This document shows, in pieces, positions 12,424 through 44,441 of a stretch of DNA of 51,010 nucleotides. Origin of the DNA: Pseudomonadota bacterium (GTDB lineage Bacteria > Pseudomonadota > Alphaproteobacteria > GCA-2731375). The stretch covers positions 1 to 51,010 of the forward strand of contig JAQBYC010000022.1 in NCBI GenBank assembly GCA_027623205.1, written 5' to 3'. Position numbers and translations under genes: made by a program. The notes under the pieces were generated by a model that was not told the DNA's origin, did no database searches, and saw nothing but the letters and a program-made list of their open reading frames with translations. The stretch's first letter is position 1, and each line of letters begins with the position of its first letter.

Positions 12424-12900
12424 ATGGCTGAAAAACTGGGATCTGGTGACGGTTTCCCCCAGATGAACCTGCCGCTGGTCGGGGGCGGCAGCATTGATTT
12501 GCCGTCCGACCTGAAAACCAATTATTCGGTCATCCTGTTTTACCGCGGCCATTGGTGACCCTACTGCCGCCGGCAGTTGGTCGGCATGGAAAACGAACTG
12601 GAAACCTTGAAAAGCCTCGGCGTATCGGTGATTGCGGCCAGTGTGGACAACGCGGAAAAAGCCGCCGAAGTCGCGGCGGAACTTTCCTACCCCGTCGCCT
12701 ATGGCGTAACCCATGAACAGGCCGCGGCCCTTGGCGCCTGGTGGGAACCGAAACGCGCCATCATTCAGCCCAGCGAATTTTTGCTGAACGCCGAGCATAA
12801 GGTGGTGGCATCCACCTACAGCGCCGGCCCCATCGGACGCATGAACCCGCCCGACGTGGTCAACATCGTGCGCTTCTACGAGAAGCAAAAAGCCGGCTAG
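12424..12900 (+). CDS. Peroxiredoxin-like selenoprotein (TGA read as selenocysteine, UxxC)
   Basis: A 158-residue AhpC/TSA-like redoxin whose codon 45, at 12556-12558, is TGA. Upstream the protein reads LFYRGHW and downstream PYCRRQL with no frame change. Cysteine relatives in this family have W-C-P-Y-C here, so TGA replaces exactly the first redox cysteine and gives a U45-P-Y-C48 motif. The remaining 113 codons are open and keep family features such as VSVIAASVD and FLLNAEHKVVASTYS. The ATG at 12424 follows GGGAG by 10 bases. A hairpin can be drawn just after the TGA (see the separate entry). The expected role is reduction of peroxides or disulfides in the cytoplasm; no signal peptide is seen. 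Alternatives are a nonsense mutation or sequencing error, both less likely given the exact position. Without selenocysteine insertion it would be a 44-residue fragment. Confidence 0.85.
12556..12588 (+). promoter_or_regulatory. Candidate bacterial SECIS hairpin of the peroxiredoxin-like gene
   Basis: After the TGA, TGCCG (12565-12569) pairs with CGGCA (12582-12586); CC (12570-12571) continues with GG (12579-12580), leaving a seven-base loop GGCAGTT at 12572-12578 and one unpaired T at 12581. The loop begins 14 bases after the TGA. An alternative shorter hairpin pairs CTGCC (12564-12568) with GGCAG (12572-12576). Bacterial SECIS elements are small hairpins immediately 3' of the UGA with a G in the loop; both folds fit roughly. 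Drawn by eye, with no energy calculation. Confidence 0.5.
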
Positions 12901-38402: not shown

Positions 38403-39446
38403 ATGGCGTACACCGACGACTGGCTGGCACTGACCACGGAAAAAACCCTGGAACCGGATTTGCCGATCTGTGATCCCCATCACCATCTATGGGATGCCAG
38501 CATCGACCCGGCGGCGAAGTTTCGCACGGAACAGGTCGAAGGCCGTTATCTGCTGCACGAATGGCTGGCCGATATCGGCTCGGGCCATAACGTGGTTTCC
38601 ACCGTCTTCATCGAATGTGGTTCCATGTACCGCGCCGACGGACCTGGCCCCATGCGCCCCGTGGGCGAGACGGAATTCGTCAACGGCATCGCCGCCATGA
38701 GCGCCTCGGGCCAATACGGCCCCGCGCGGGTTGCCGCCGGCATTGTCGGCTTGGCGAATCTGAACCTGGGCGCCGAGGTGAAAGAGGTGCTGGAGGCGCA
38801 TATCGCCGCCGGCGGCGGGCGCTTTCGCGGCATTCGCCATGCCGCGTCCTGGGATGCAAGCGACGACATACGCAATTCCCACACCAAGCCGACCAAGGGC
38901 ATGCTGGGCGACGCCGTCTTCCGCCAGGGCTTCGCCCAATTGGCGCCGCTCAACCTCAGTTTCGAGGCCTGGTGCTTTCACCCCCAGATCCCCGAGATGA
39001 CCGATCTGGCCCGCGCCTTCCCGGACACCACGATGATCTTGAACCATTTTGGCGGGCCCATCGGGATCGGCCCCCATGCGGGCAAGCGCGCTGAAATTCT
39101 GGCCCAATGGCGCCTGGATATTGATGCACTGGCGAAATGTCCCAACGTGGTGGCCAAGCTGGGCGGCATCAATATGAAGGTCAACGGCTATGATTGGGAT
39201 TTGCAGGCCCGGCCCCCCGGCAGCGAGGAACTGGCCGCCGCGACCCGGGTCTATTACGACCATTGTATTGAGCGCTTCGGGGTCGAGCGCTGCATGTTCG
39301 AATCCAACTTCCCCGTCGACAAACGGACCTGCAGCTACAACGTGCTTTGGAACACCTTCAAGCGCATAGCCGCAGGCTGCTCGGCCGGGGAAAAGGCCTC
39401 GCTGTTTCACGACACCGCCGCCCGGGTTTACCGCATCAATGTGTAA
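38403..39446 (+). CDS. Amidohydrolase-2 family metal-dependent hydrolase
   Basis: A 347-residue TIM-barrel hydrolase or decarboxylase of the amidohydrolase-2 family (LigI, lactonase and decarboxylase relatives). The metal-binding segment is ICDPHHHLWDAS near residue 20; other barrel strands end at WCFHPQIPEM, LNHFGGPIG and MFESNFPVDK. It is 18 bases upstream of the HIBADH-like dehydrogenase, so the two act together, perhaps in degrading a lactone or dicarboxylate. Confidence 0.9.
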   Translation: MAYTDDWLALTTEKTLEPDLPICDPHHHLWDASIDPAAKFRTEQVEGRYLLHEWLADIGSGHNVVSTVFIECGSMYRADGPGPMRPVGETEFVNGIAAMSASGQYGPARVAAGIVGLANLNLGAEVKEVLEAHIAAGGGRFRGIRHAASWDASDDIRNSHTKPTKGMLGDAVFRQGFAQLAPLNLSFEAWCFHPQIPEMTDLARAFPDTTMILNHFGGPIGIGPHAGKRAEILAQWRLDIDALAKCPNVVAKLGGINMKVNGYDWDLQARPPGSEELAAATRVYYDHCIERFGVERCMFESNFPVDKRTCSYNVLWNTFKRIAAGCSAGEKASLFHDTAARVYRINV

Positions 39447-39464
39447 TCAGGAGTGGATGAAATC

Positions 39465-40361
39465 ATGACCGAACGTATCGCGGTAATCGGCATGGGGCAG
39501 ATGGGCTCGGCCATGGCCCGGCGACTGAGCGAGTCGCAATGGGACGTGATGGGCTACGATATCAGCGAAGAGGTCCGCCGGAACCTGACCCCGCAGGGCG
39601 TCAAGATGGCCGATAGCCTGGCGGCGGCCCTGGCCGGACGCACCACCGTTCTGACCTCGTTGCCGGACCCGAAAGCGGTGAACGACGCCTGGTTGGGCGC
39701 CGACGGCATCATCGCCCTGGCCGAAGACGGCAGCCTGCTGGTGGAATTGAGCACCATTGATCCCGATACCATGAAGACAGTGGGCGCCGCGGCGATTGCG
39801 AAAGGGCTGGCGGTGCTGGACTGCCCCGTCAGCGGCAGCCCCAACGAAGCGGGCACGGGCAAGCTGGTGTTGCTGGTGGGTGGCGAGGCGCCAACCCTTG
39901 ACCGCGCCGGACCCCTGTTCGATTTGCTGGGGCAGACCTGGCAGCACACCGGCCCCATCGGCACCGCCAAGGTGGTGAAAATCGTCAACAACATGATGTC
40001 CATGGGCAACGTCCTGGTCGCCTCGGAAGCATTTGCCCTGGGCGTCGCCGCCGGCGTGGAGCCGCAAAAGCTGTTCGATGTGATATCCGTCAGCGGCGGC
40101 CGCTCGCACCATTTCACCAAGCGCTTCCCCAACGCCCTGCAGGACGATTTCGCGCCTGGCTTCAAGATGGAGCTGGGGGAAAAGGACCTCTCCCTGGGCG
40201 TCGATCTGGGCCGCGTCCTGAAAATGCCCACCCCCGCCGCCTCCCTGGCCCGCGAGATGTACGCTCTGGCCGTGGCCGAGGGCTACAAGGGCCAGGACAT
40301 CGTCGCACTGATGGACATGTACCGCCAATGGGCCAAACGCAGCCGGCCATCGGGGGGATGA
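39465..40361 (+). CDS. 3-hydroxyisobutyrate-dehydrogenase-family oxidoreductase
   Basis: A 298-residue beta-hydroxyacid dehydrogenase. The Rossmann motif is IAVIGMGQMGSAMARRL; the substrate loop DCPVSGSPNEAGTGKLVLLV and the catalytic lysine region AKVVKIVNNMMSMGN follow. Uses NAD(P)+ to oxidise a 3-hydroxy acid. The ATG at 39465 follows AGGAG; a GTG four codons upstream is less likely because it overlaps that site. Operon partner of the amidohydrolase. Confidence 0.92.
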   Translation: MTERIAVIGMGQMGSAMARRLSESQWDVMGYDISEEVRRNLTPQGVKMADSLAAALAGRTTVLTSLPDPKAVNDAWLGADGIIALAEDGSLLVELSTIDPDTMKTVGAAAIAKGLAVLDCPVSGSPNEAGTGKLVLLVGGEAPTLDRAGPLFDLLGQTWQHTGPIGTAKVVKIVNNMMSMGNVLVASEAFALGVAAGVEPQKLFDVISVSGGRSHHFTKRFPNALQDDFAPGFKMELGEKDLSLGVDLGRVLKMPTPAASLAREMYALAVAEGYKGQDIVALMDMYRQWAKRSRPSGG

Positions 40362-40487: not shown

Positions 40488-40859
40488 CTATTTCGTGGCG
40501 TAGAACGCCAGTTTATTGCCGTCCAGATCGCGGACGTAGCCAAAGGTCATGCCGCCGCCGCCGCGCGGGCCCACTTCGCCTTCATCGCTGCCGCCCAACG
40601 CCAACGCCTTGGCATGCAGTTTCGCAACGGTCTCGGCATCGTCCACCATGAGCGCCACCATTGTCCCGTTGCCGGCGCTGGCGGGCTGGCCGTCGAACGG
40701 CTTGATAACGCCAAGCATGGCCGCGCCGGCCTTGCTGGACCACAGCACCAGACGATCGTTCGGGGTAATCTTTTTGAGCCCGAGGTCGGCGAACAGAGCA
40801 TCATAGAATGACGCGGCTTTTTCGAGGTCGTTGGTTCCAAGGGTGGTGTAGCCGATCAT
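40488..40859 (-). CDS. Glyoxalase/VOC-family protein
   Basis: A 123-residue VOC protein. YTTLGTNDLEKAASFYDALF begins the fold, GNGTMVALMVDDAETVAKLH is central, and MTFGYVRDLDGNKLAFYATK ends it. Often annotated as glyoxalase-like or bleomycin-resistance-like. Function unknown. It lies 82 bases downstream of the UGSC gene and may be co-transcribed. Confidence 0.88.
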   Translation of the reverse strand: MIGYTTLGTNDLEKAASFYDALFADLGLKKITPNDRLVLWSSKAGAAMLGVIKPFDGQPASAGNGTMVALMVDDAETVAKLHAKALALGGSDEGEVGPRGGGGMTFGYVRDLDGNKLAFYATK

Positions 40860-40941: not shown

Positions 40942-41463
40942 CTAGGCCTCCATCAGGATCGGCAGGGCCTGGGCATAGGCGGTCTCGGCCAGGGTCTTGA
41001 TTTCGGGCAGGGTGCGGCTGCCGATGGGGTGCTCGACCATCACGAAAGGATAGTCCGGCAAGCCCAGCATCCGGGCAATGTTCCTGACCGTCACCTCGAA
41101 CGGTTCCGTGCACACCACCACCGCGCGCTTGCCAAGCTGTTCGAAACTGATGCCGTCATGCAAACTGCACGTCGAGCAACTGCCTCAATCACCCAGACCA
41201 GTAAGCAGAAAATCCACCTCATCGGCGGCCGCCCGAATGGTTTCGCTGGGCGCCGGCGCGGAGGCGTTGCTTTTCGAGAAGAGCGGCAGAACGGTGCAGC
41301 CGTGGCGCTGTTCGAACAGGGCGGCGGTTTCCCGCAGCATGTTGACGGCGTTCAGCTTGCCGTTCTCCAACAGCCCGATGGTCTTGCCTTCCAGGCTGGA
41401 CAATTGCGCCGCACGGGCATAGTTCCGTTCCGGCCCGGTTACGGTGGGGTCATAGAGTTGCAT
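40942..41463 (-). CDS. UGSC-family selenoprotein (TGA read as selenocysteine)
   Basis: A 173-residue protein whose codon 93 (41187-41185) is TGA. It reads LLTGLGD before and GSCSTCSLHDG after with no frame change. U93-G-S-C96 is the family's defining motif; relatives carry cysteine or selenocysteine at U, and a second pair C96-S-T-C99 follows. The ATG at 41463 follows TTGGAGGAAAG, and the last 80 codons are open. Taken with the peroxiredoxin-like gene, this makes a real selenoprotein far likelier than a disrupted gene. The enzymatic role of the family is not established; a thiol/selenol redox function is inferred from the motif. The gene 34 bases upstream is a probable partner. Confidence 0.88.
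41160..41187 (-). promoter_or_regulatory. Candidate SECIS hairpin of the UGSC gene
   Basis: Read on the minus strand after the TGA, GCAG (41183-41180) pairs with TTGC, wobble included, and TTGC then pairs with GCAG after one bulged T, leaving a loop TCGACGT at 41175-41169. The loop starts 10 bases after the TGA and contains a G. The stem includes wobbles and is weaker than in the peroxiredoxin-like gene. Drawn by eye. Confidence 0.4.
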
Positions 41464-41497
41464 GGCTTTCCTCCAATCGTCGCCGTGGTTTTACCAT

Positions 41498-42577
41498 TTA
41501 GTCGCAATCAATGCAGACGCCGATGGGCTTGGACTGCATGATCGAGCCGCGGCCGCGGCTCCAGGATGGAATAAAGGACGAGTGGCCGCCGGCATCGCCG
41601 CCGCCCATGACGACCAGGATGTCGTCGGGCGACAGACCCCGGTGCATCTTGCCGGCCTCCACCAGCGGGCTGCCACCCGCATCGCTGTGCTGTTTGTCAT
41701 ACTCGCGCTGGCGGTACTTGCCGACCGACTGCATCCCCTCGACGGTGCGGGCCGCGTGGCTGAACAAAAATTCCTGTACCTGTTGCTTGCTCCAGCCGGT
41801 GGCGGCGATAACCCGGACATGCTCCGGTGACAGCACCACCACCGATTGGCCCAGTGTGATGCAGCCATAGTTGGCCATGGCATCGGCGATGGAGCCCAGC
41901 ACCATCTCGGGCGTGTTGCCGCCGTGGTTCTCGACGTTGCAGAAACCGCCGCCCGCGAACACGGTCACGCTGCTGACGCCGGGGGGATAGTCCAGATCCT
42001 CGACCAGCAGGGGCCAGGGATTGCCCGCCCGGCGCTCGGCGATGCAGAAGCTGAACTTGCCCGGATTGCCCTGGGTGGATTTGTCGGACACCCCCGGGAT
42101 CATCCGGAATACGTTCATCAGGATCAGGCGCACGGCACGGCCGATGGTGGCGTTGGCGCGGTTGCCGGGGCCGAACAGGTTCACGTCGGCGTTCATGCCG
42201 ATGTCATCGATCACCGGCCCGCTGACCACCAGCAAGGGCGCGGAGCCCCCGGTGCTGGCGGTGGAGCCGTGGAAGTTGAAGCCGGGTTCATTCATCGCCT
42301 CGAGCGCGGCAACGACGACGGGCAGATATTCCGGCTTGCAGCCTGCCATGACGGCATTCACCGCCGCCGCGTGCACCGTGCACTCAAGCCCTGTCGCCGG
42401 ATGCGCCGCCAGCACGGTCTCGGGCGGCCGGCCCTCGAACAGCAGCATCGCCTCGACGCGCTGTACATCCGGCGGGACCACCGGCAAGCCGTCCGTCCAG
42501 CCCTGCGCGTAACAATAGTCGATGGCGGCCAGAGGATCGTCGTCGACCTCGTGAATCCGGGCTGAAGCGAGGGACAT
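41498..42577 (-). CDS. Conserved hypothetical protein, UGSC neighbour with C-terminal CxxC
   Basis: A 359-residue protein of unknown function, apparently intact. Prominent segments are YCYAQGWTDGLPVVPPD, NAVMAGCKPEYLPVVVAALE and GVSDKSTQGNPGKFSFCIAE. The last residues read IGVCIDCD, a C355-I-D-C358 pair three residues from the end that could act as a mobile redox tail. The ATG at 42577 follows GGGAGC; the frame stays open upstream without similarity. It is 34 bases upstream of the UGSC gene on the same strand. I recall this protein type being linked with UGSC proteins, but that needs a search. No function is asserted. Confidence 0.8.
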   Translation of the reverse strand: MSLASARIHEVDDDPLAAIDYCYAQGWTDGLPVVPPDVQRVEAMLLFEGRPPETVLAAHPATGLECTVHAAAVNAVMAGCKPEYLPVVVAALEAMNEPGFNFHGSTASTGGSAPLLVVSGPVIDDIGMNADVNLFGPGNRANATIGRAVRLILMNVFRMIPGVSDKSTQGNPGKFSFCIAERRAGNPWPLLVEDLDYPPGVSSVTVFAGGGFCNVENHGGNTPEMVLGSIADAMANYGCITLGQSVVVLSPEHVRVIAATGWSKQQVQEFLFSHAARTVEGMQSVGKYRQREYDKQHSDAGGSPLVEAGKMHRGLSPDDILVVMGGGDAGGHSSFIPSWSRGRGSIMQSKPIGVCIDCD

Positions 42578-42730
42578 GGCGTTGCTCCCGATGTTGGTTC
42601 CGTCGTTGCCAGAATACACCGCGGCGAAATTGATGGGCAAAGAAATCAACCCCGCCGAGGAGAAATGTTGTGCAAGCCATTCGCCTAAGTTCGCCTGCCG
42701 TTTCCCTTGGCAGGCCGGCCGCATCGCCGG

Positions 42731-43540
42731 TTAGGCCCGTTCGTTCAAAAACATCCGCAACGTCGTGCTGCATTCGCCAGCGTGGGAGAACGGCAGGCCA
42801 TGTTTGGCATGGGGGAAAACCCGCAGCCGCGCATTGGGCAGCAGGGCGTGCAGGTCCGCCATGATGGGCACGGGGATGAAGGGCGAGGAATCCGGATGCA
42901 TCAGCAGGGTCGGCAGCCCGAGAGCAGGCAATTGCCGGCTCAGGTCCGTGCCCACGAGGGTCTTTAACAGGGCCAGCACGGTGGCCGGGTCGGCGCTGGC
43001 CTGTTGCGCGCGGTACCAGGCCCACACCGGCGCTGTCAGGGCGCCTTCGAAAAACCGGTGGCTCATCATGCGGTCGGACCAGGCCGGCATGCCCTCGCCC
43101 TCGATCAACGCGTGCCAGAAATCCAGGTTCCGGATGCTGCCGCCCACATGGGCGCCGTTGCTCACCGTCAGGCTCAACAGGCGGTCGGGATGTTCGATCG
43201 CGGTCCGCAGGGCCACGGTGCCGCCCACGGATTCCCCCACCAGATGGAATTTCTCACAGTTACCGGTGCCGTTCAGGGCGTCCGCCAGGGCGATGACATC
43301 GCCCACCATGGCGTCAATGGTAATGGCGCCATCGCCGGGTTGGGACTGCCCATGGCCCGGCAGATCGAATGCCACCAGGCGATAATTGTCCTGCAAGGCG
43401 GCCGCCCAGCCCAGCCAGCAACGCCAATTGGCGCCCACGCCATGATGGAAAATGATCGTTTCCGGCGCTTCGACCCAAGGCGCCGTCAGGTCGACGATTT
43501 CATAATGCAGGCGGTGCGCGCCGGTATCCAGCTGTGGCAT
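42731..43540 (-). CDS. Alpha/beta hydrolase
   Basis: A 269-residue alpha/beta-hydrolase. The nucleophile is S104 in GESVGGTVALR; IIFHHGVGANWRCW is the oxyanion region; the acid may be in LMHPDSSPFIPVP; and the histidine is in FPHAKHGLPFSHA. The ATG at 43540 is the first good start. It lies 19 bases downstream of the sulfurtransferase and 153 upstream of the UGSC neighbour. Substrate unknown. Confidence 0.9.
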   Translation of the reverse strand: MPQLDTGAHRLHYEIVDLTAPWVEAPETIIFHHGVGANWRCWLGWAAALQDNYRLVAFDLPGHGQSQPGDGAITIDAMVGDVIALADALNGTGNCEKFHLVGESVGGTVALRTAIEHPDRLLSLTVSNGAHVGGSIRNLDFWHALIEGEGMPAWSDRMMSHRFFEGALTAPVWAWYRAQQASADPATVLALLKTLVGTDLSRQLPALGLPTLLMHPDSSPFIPVPIMADLHALLPNARLRVFPHAKHGLPFSHAGECSTTLRMFLNERA

Positions 43541-43559
43541 CTTATTCCATTGCTCCCGT

Positions 43560-44441
43560 CTATAGGTCGCCGTCGGTTTCCATGGGCAGACTATGGTCAT
43601 TGGCCCATTCCGACAGGGAATTGTCGTAGATGCCCACATCGTCGTGGCCGAGGAGCACCAGGGCGAAAGCGTCCGCCGTGGCCGCGATACCGCCGCCGCA
43701 ATAGGTCAGCACCTTTTTATCCATCCCGATCCTGGCTGCGGCAAACTTCGCCTGCAGGGCGTCCGCCGCAAGAAAGGTATTGCGTTCCCGGTCCAGCAGA
43801 TCCAGTCCCGGCAGACAGACACTGCCCGCGATCCGGCCCGGCCGGCCATAATGGGTTTTCGAGGCGCCCGCATGCTGGGCCTGGGTCAGGGCATTGACCA
43901 CCACCGCAGCCTCGTTTTCCAGAGCGGCCAGCACCGCCTCCTTCGCCACGATCCGCCCGGGCTGGACCCGGGCCGTAAAGGCGGCGGCTGGATAGCGGCA
44001 GGCAGCCGTGCTGGTGGGGCGCCCCTCGGCCTGCCATTTTTGCATGCCGCCATTCAGGACCGCCGCAGTCTCAAAGCCGAAGGCGTACAGCATCCACCAG
44101 ATACGGGTAGCCCACCACATGGTCCCGCCGCTGTAGAGCACGATGCGGAAATCATCGCCCAGGCCCTTGGCCCCCACGGCGGCGGCAAAATCATCGGCGC
44201 CCGGGGTGGTAAAGCGAAAGGCGCCGGCGGGATCGGACAATTCAGCCTGCAGGTCCAGATAGCCGGCGCCGGGAATATGGCCGGCCTGATAGTCTTCCAA
44301 GCCGCTCTTGACGGTAAAAACCTTTTCCGGATCAGGCACCAGATGGGTCGTGCAATCGAAAATCCGCACCTTCGGATCGTCCAGATGATCCTCCAGCCAG
44401 TCCGTTTCCACCAATAATTCCGGCCGCGGGTAGTCGTTCAT
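43560..44441 (-). CDS. Thiosulfate / 3-mercaptopyruvate sulfurtransferase
   Basis: A 293-residue tandem-rhodanese protein. The active cysteine is C248 in TYCGGGIAATADAF; the inactive N-terminal domain ends with LYSGGTMWWATRIWW. It moves sulfur from thiosulfate or 3-mercaptopyruvate to an acceptor. The ATG at 44441 follows GGAGAGGAGG. It leads a minus-strand run toward the UGSC gene, so a sulfur or selenium link is possible but unproven. Divergent from the ketopantoate reductase. Confidence 0.92.
   Translation of the reverse strand: MNDYPRPELLVETDWLEDHLDDPKVRIFDCTTHLVPDPEKVFTVKSGLEDYQAGHIPGAGYLDLQAELSDPAGAFRFTTPGADDFAAAVGAKGLGDDFRIVLYSGGTMWWATRIWWMLYAFGFETAAVLNGGMQKWQAEGRPTSTAACRYPAAAFTARVQPGRIVAKEAVLAALENEAAVVVNALTQAQHAGASKTHYGRPGRIAGSVCLPGLDLLDRERNTFLAADALQAKFAAARIGMDKKVLTYCGGGIAATADAFALVLLGHDDVGIYDNSLSEWANDHSLPMETDGDL

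Follow-up and report, generated by a model that had tools for sequence, protein, structure and literature searches.

The GrdB and PrdB proteins of the glycine, betaine, and D-proline reductases, as well as the small PrdB-like proteins of Alphaproteobacteria, resemble the proteins of the UGSC family in carrying selenocysteine (Sec) in a UxxC motif at the end of a beta-strand. Reductases of the glycine and proline type are fed by thioredoxin (PMC8547467), and the glycine reductase operon of Clostridioides difficile has the gene order trxA2-trxB3-grdXEABCD (PMC3510511). A 2008 survey assigns the UGSC family a likely thioredoxin-like fold and describes, in ocean metagenomes, its fusion to an unnamed conserved domain with a conserved Cys, called Unknown_1 (PMC2398784). 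A review from 2026 lists UGSC among the selenoproteins of thioredoxin fold (PMC13188914). Finally, a swap of the Sec codon to TAG, matched by a tRNA-Sec with anticodon CUA, has been reported, UGSC genes included (PMC5330540). Our search of the searchable papers found neither a function nor a measured activity for the family.

We analyzed a member of this family in an alphaproteobacterial genome. The window, i.e., the whole stretch of DNA that was analyzed, has 51,010 nucleotides and contains the following features.

12424-12900 (+): peroxiredoxin-like (AhpC-TSA) gene, second selenoprotein candidate, with a TGA at 12556 in HWUPYC
38403-39446 (+): Amidohydrolase_2 protein, on the other strand from UGSC; the family recurs beside UGSC modules elsewhere
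39453-40361 (+): oxidoreductase of 3-hydroxyisobutyrate dehydrogenase (hydroxyacid) type, neighbor on the other strand
40488-40859 (-): glyoxalase/VOC protein, next gene downstream, same strand as UGSC
40942-41463 (-): gene of a UGSC-family selenoprotein of 173 residues (~18 kDa) with Sec as residue 93
41155-41173 (-): SECIS-like hairpin spanning nt 15-33, where nt 1 is the T of the TGA, apical G at 41165, 20 nt past the TGA
41185-41187 (-): in-frame TGA, the U of U-G-S-C, in the context GLGD-U-GSCSTC
41464-41497 (-): gap of 34 nt from the partner stop to the UGSC start, holding GGAGG
41498-42724 (-): partner gene, "P2", ending 34 nt before the UGSC start
42731-43639 (-): alpha/beta hydrolase similar to enol-lactonases; the UGSC operon possibly begins with it

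The UGSC gene runs from 41463 to 40942, starts with ATG, ends with TAG, and has a single in-frame TGA; the GGAGG of the gap is a ribosome site preceding its ATG. The original prediction had placed a TGA between GLGD and GSCSTC, at the U that defines the UGSC family, and this is indeed what stands at 41187-41185. Its family assignment held when the read-through protein was aligned to PF24696 (UGSC), which it matches over the whole length (residues 3-170, 157.8 bits for a cut-off of 25 bits, E 3.7e-46). The narrower equivalog model NF041046 (UGSC_fam) gave 120.9 bits, 4 bits short of its cut-off of 125, whereas PF24696 takes the family more broadly. The gene is thus a member of a selenoprotein family already known since 2008, with a size like that of other members and no essential difference from them, and comparison with its relatives (see below) makes it almost certainly a genuine selenoprotein, with the TGA read as selenocysteine. 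The prediction had also counted another gene with TGA at a redox site in the window; it is real, and encodes the AhpC/TSA-type protein at 12424-12900 (+). Scanning the window for UxxC and CxxU motifs returned several chance frames besides these two. Three points were absent from the original prediction: the partner gene, the relation to the GrdB/PrdB type, and the fact that the genome encodes eight UGSC paralogues.

The frame of the partner gene extends to 42724, but homology with other partners starts downstream of an internal ATG at 42577, which is the likelier start and from which we number its residues. The partner in the window matched no family of Pfam or NCBIfam, a Pfam search with 21 partner sequences gave scattered weak matches only, and the profiles of both UGSC and partner gave only chance matches to PDB sequences. 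A partner homologue lies beside UGSC, on the same strand, in 34 of the 36 loci of relatives. When genomes across species were scanned with the partner, 72 of the 80 loci had a UGSC gene; they belong to Proteobacteria, Chloroflexota, Rokubacteria, Acidobacteria, Actinobacteria, Binatia, haloarchaea, and other groups. Four of the eight partner loci lacking UGSC lie close to the end of a contig or on a short one; the other four (L101, L105, L130, and L138) have around 5 kb on both sides. Among the latter, a locus of Bacillota (L105:3864-5993) has two partner genes in tandem, where 11 kb yielded no UGSC gene, and may perhaps represent a Sec-free form of the partner. The two proteins are fused into one in ten loci. 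Apparent fusions in L040 and L059, and those in the order partner-then-UGSC in the 80-locus scan, result from reading through the TGA stop of the partner and were not counted. Clustering of the neighboring genes did not reveal a third gene conserved with the UGSC-partner module. Linkage and fusions strongly support a predicted two-subunit enzyme, with UGSC as the small selenol-bearing subunit and the partner as the other. The domain Unknown_1 of the 2008 survey is probably this partner; the survey reports the association in a limited number of organisms, whereas here the partner accompanies UGSC nearly everywhere (PMC2398784).

How this enzyme relates to the known reductases was assessed by profile-profile comparison (hhalign), using PrdB-like selenoproteins that PF07355 had retrieved from the same class. 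UGSC profiles scored 38-46 against these profiles of GrdB/PrdB type, with probabilities of 64-91%, for controls of at most 17 with shuffled columns and at most 26 with 24 real decoy families. When the seven columns around Sec were masked in both profiles, the score was still 37-38 with the Sec columns in register, which indicates that the relation goes beyond a common CxxC. In both groups a helix comes after the Sec, and then a Gly-Ile-Pro-Thr strand and a Pro-Leu/Ile-Gly motif. Profile comparison supports a distant relationship between the UGSC domain and the Sec-bearing C-terminal domain of GrdB/PrdB. PF07355 was not among the families matched by 22 UGSC members with HMMER at E<=1, and UGSC loci were absent from the matches of a search with PF07355, so we do not file UGSC as a member of GrdB/PrdB. 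UGSC differs from these proteins in being shorter and in having a partner that is not recognizably GrdE/PrdA. The GrdE/PrdA subunit (PF09338) had no match in 240 genomes, including that of the window, in a search where no control genome gave a match either. Self-cleavage of the pyruvoyl type at the conserved Cys of the partner, as in GrdE/PrdA, is unsupported because the homologue of locus L045 has Leu there and no relation to PF09338 was seen. The PrdB-like profile itself had only chance matches in the PDB. Two other contigs of the genome, C113 and C129 (L159 and L174), have small PrdB/GrdB-like genes in which PxC is preceded by an in-frame TGA; these would be further selenoproteins truncated by automatic gene calls.

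Like some of the GrdB/PrdB operons (PMC3510511), some UGSC modules include thioredoxin genes. The order is trxB-trxA-partner-UGSC in Arthrobacter sp. ERGS1:01, with genes that overlap or nearly touch, and partner-UGSC-trxB in Roseovarius, while Variovorax SRS16 and V. boronicumulans have a trxB or a TrxR-like gene upstream of the module. In the genome of the window, the module on contig C143 consists of a fusion and a second partner copy followed by a TrxR-like gene with a CAFC site; two other loci also have a TrxR-like gene with CxxC. Of 130 loci overall, about 7 to 9 have such genes nearby, for a chance expectation of about 1 (estimated on the assumption of a few such genes in a 5 Mb genome). 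The window has no thioredoxin reductase gene. The remaining neighbors of UGSC modules vary, and catabolic genes are frequent among them: amidohydrolase_2, luciferase-type monooxygenase, CoA transferase, binding proteins of TRAP and tricarboxylate type, and dehydrogenases.

We lean towards a function that we infer from these elements, in which UGSC, together with its partner, would reduce small organic substrates as a two-subunit enzyme that depends on the selenol and is driven by thioredoxin. The partner would bind the substrate, a small organic molecule that is probably a carboxylic acid, by means of invariant Asp, Asn, Arg, and Glu residues; those invariant in all 72 aligned partner sequences include D29, G30, N74, G79, G120, R147, N155, and E181. 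The Sec selenolate, at the subunit interface, would attack or reduce this substrate. A selenenyl-sulfide would then form with the cysteine of UxxC, and thioredoxin with thioredoxin reductase would reset the U-S bridge. Several results weigh against this reading: UGSC has no direct match to PF07355, thioredoxin reductase adjoins only about 7 of the 130 loci and is absent from the window, some partner loci lack UGSC, and the hairpin of the gene in the window is no more stable than its synonymous shuffles. If this mechanistic reading is true, the UGSC family is a new form of the GrdB/PrdB type, while the gene itself belongs to a known family.

Alternatively, catalysis could lie with the partner, as a hydratase or lyase remotely akin to class I fumarases, and UGSC would then serve only to keep its metal center or catalytic thiol reduced. 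We regard this as unlikely. Modeled alone, the partner reaches a pLDDT of 91.1, and its best match among solved structures is the two-subunit class I fumarate hydratase 7xky (Foldseek E 1.7e-4). Two of its cysteines are nearly invariant in the 72 aligned sequences (C80 in 99% and C178 in 92%), and aconitase X lies beside two plasmid modules. However, the structural alignment with fumarate hydratase (VIA Z 4.7, 5.5 A rmsd over 194 residues) does not rise above unrelated rows, and the partner sequence has no PDB match. Given the low Z and the large rmsd, this weak likeness of fold cannot name a function, and we rejected fumarase as an assignment. Furthermore, the otherwise intact homologue of L045 lacks C80, and the Sec is almost always retained, which suggests that it has a chemical role.

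It is less likely still that UGSC serves redox homeostasis as a general thiol-disulfide oxidoreductase of thioredoxin-like fold, the partner being its accessory or target. The UxxC motif fits such a role, as does the fold assigned in the 2008 survey (PMC2398784) and in the 2026 review (PMC13188914). However, a natural fusion on contig C56 was modeled by AlphaFold with a mean pLDDT of 93.5 and a pTM of 0.92, and hence with a confident relative placing of the domains. In this model the UGSC domain has a parallel sheet of five strands with beta-alpha alternation, and the folds that it matches are like those of flavodoxin, CheY, and PurE. The domain is therefore predicted to be flavodoxin-like rather than thioredoxin-like; this prediction argues against the latter, although a fold absent from the list of matches may still apply. 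The profile comparison favors GrdB/PrdB. The partner is also dedicated to its own module, and the catabolic neighbors differ from module to module.

That the TGA is a real stop, as table 11 translates it, leaving a pseudogene or a protein of 92 residues, is hardly credible: of the 116 matches that 26 related genomes gave, all 115 that span the site have TGA, the other being a fragment short of it, the region past the TGA is under purifying selection, the genome has Sec machinery, and Geodermatophilus has swapped to TAG and CUA. The original prediction had named a correction of the sequence to TGC or TGT as grounds for abandoning it, and the TGA of the relatives contradicts this. The codon is kept at the same place in three orthologues of the same genus (L052, L056, and L057), and over the 80 codons downstream these differ from the gene of the window by 19-24 synonymous and 6-10 nonsynonymous changes, a pattern of purifying selection. 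The conserved TGA and the mostly synonymous changes after it exclude a base error and a decaying frame. All eight UGSC paralogues of the genome have TGA as well. The expectation of a working Sec system, together with the concern that its genes might be missing, could be settled in the same genome: SelA and SelB are encoded side by side on contig C213, there are two SelD genes, one of which itself has an in-frame TGA, and there is a tRNA-Sec with anticodon UCA.

TGA at the UGSC site is almost universal among 80 loci from many phyla. Natrialba has TGC, and Geodermatophilus ruber has TAG paired with a tRNA-Sec of anticodon CUA; this pairing is independent evidence that the position is selenocysteine. 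In a metagenome-assembled genome of Geodermatophilaceae (L112:5229-5735), the site is TGC, giving the Cys version (CAGC) of UGSC despite a tRNA-Sec(UCA). Plasmid records of cultured strains have the Cys form in Arthrobacter, Roseovarius, Variovorax, and Natrinema, and TGA in Paracoccus versutus. On a plasmid of Paracoccus ferrooxidans (L193:4447-10846), the partner gene is about 3 kb from selB, and the annotation breaks up the frame upstream of the partner into short pieces, which is what a Sec TGA mistaken for a stop would produce. A tRNA-Sec gene lies directly upstream, on the same strand, of another partner-UGSC pair on contig C209 (L031:4888-6712), and likewise in L039.

SelB and tRNA-Sec(UCA) almost certainly read the TGA as selenocysteine, with the aid of a hairpin just downstream. 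A hairpin whose apical loop begins with G follows the TGA in 96% of 108 UGSC genes, against 43% of shuffles of synonymous codons. The hairpin energies differ from those of the shuffles with a Wilcoxon p of 6e-16, a value that overstates independence since the 108 sequences are related, and an upstream control region gave a mean z of -0.16. The innermost pair of the stem forms in all sequences, with C-G changed to G-C in 19 and to G-T in two, and pairing falls from 86% to 14-50% when the opposite strand of the stem is shifted. The gene of the window has the same stem as the family, but an energy that is unexceptional relative to its own synonymous shuffles (z -0.15), so the case for its hairpin rests on the family and the position of its stem follows the family-wide one. 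An Rfam search of the window found nothing.

The eight UGSC genes of the genome fall mostly in separate parts of the family tree, and most have their nearest relatives in other genomes. Their spread suggests that the duplications are old and that the copies are probably distinct in substrate; the paralogues of one genome would then act on different substrates in different catabolic gene clusters. We put forward, tentatively, that UGSC modules could be a widespread class of two-subunit thioredoxin-driven selenoenzymes, largely outside anaerobic fermenters, in which the catalytic Sec domain of glycine and proline reductases is joined to an unrelated substrate-binding subunit, and which in this genus has expanded to between six and eight paralogues in each genome, serving different organic substrates. 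This would help explain the upkeep of an expensive Sec system in such bacteria: one genome has eight UGSC paralogues, and no replacement by Cys was seen in the 26 related genomes searched. The constant partner, the likely evolutionary link with GrdB/PrdB, and the thioredoxin connection turn a hypothetical protein into a testable enzyme. One locus (L036:2137-9551) has in a row an ABC transporter, a methyltransferase, a UGSC-partner fusion, a second partner copy, and a TrxR-like gene, and is a good candidate for finding a substrate. On contig C80 (L035:6444-8732), a UGSC-partner pair adjoins a gene similar to the beta subunit of dimethylformamidase.
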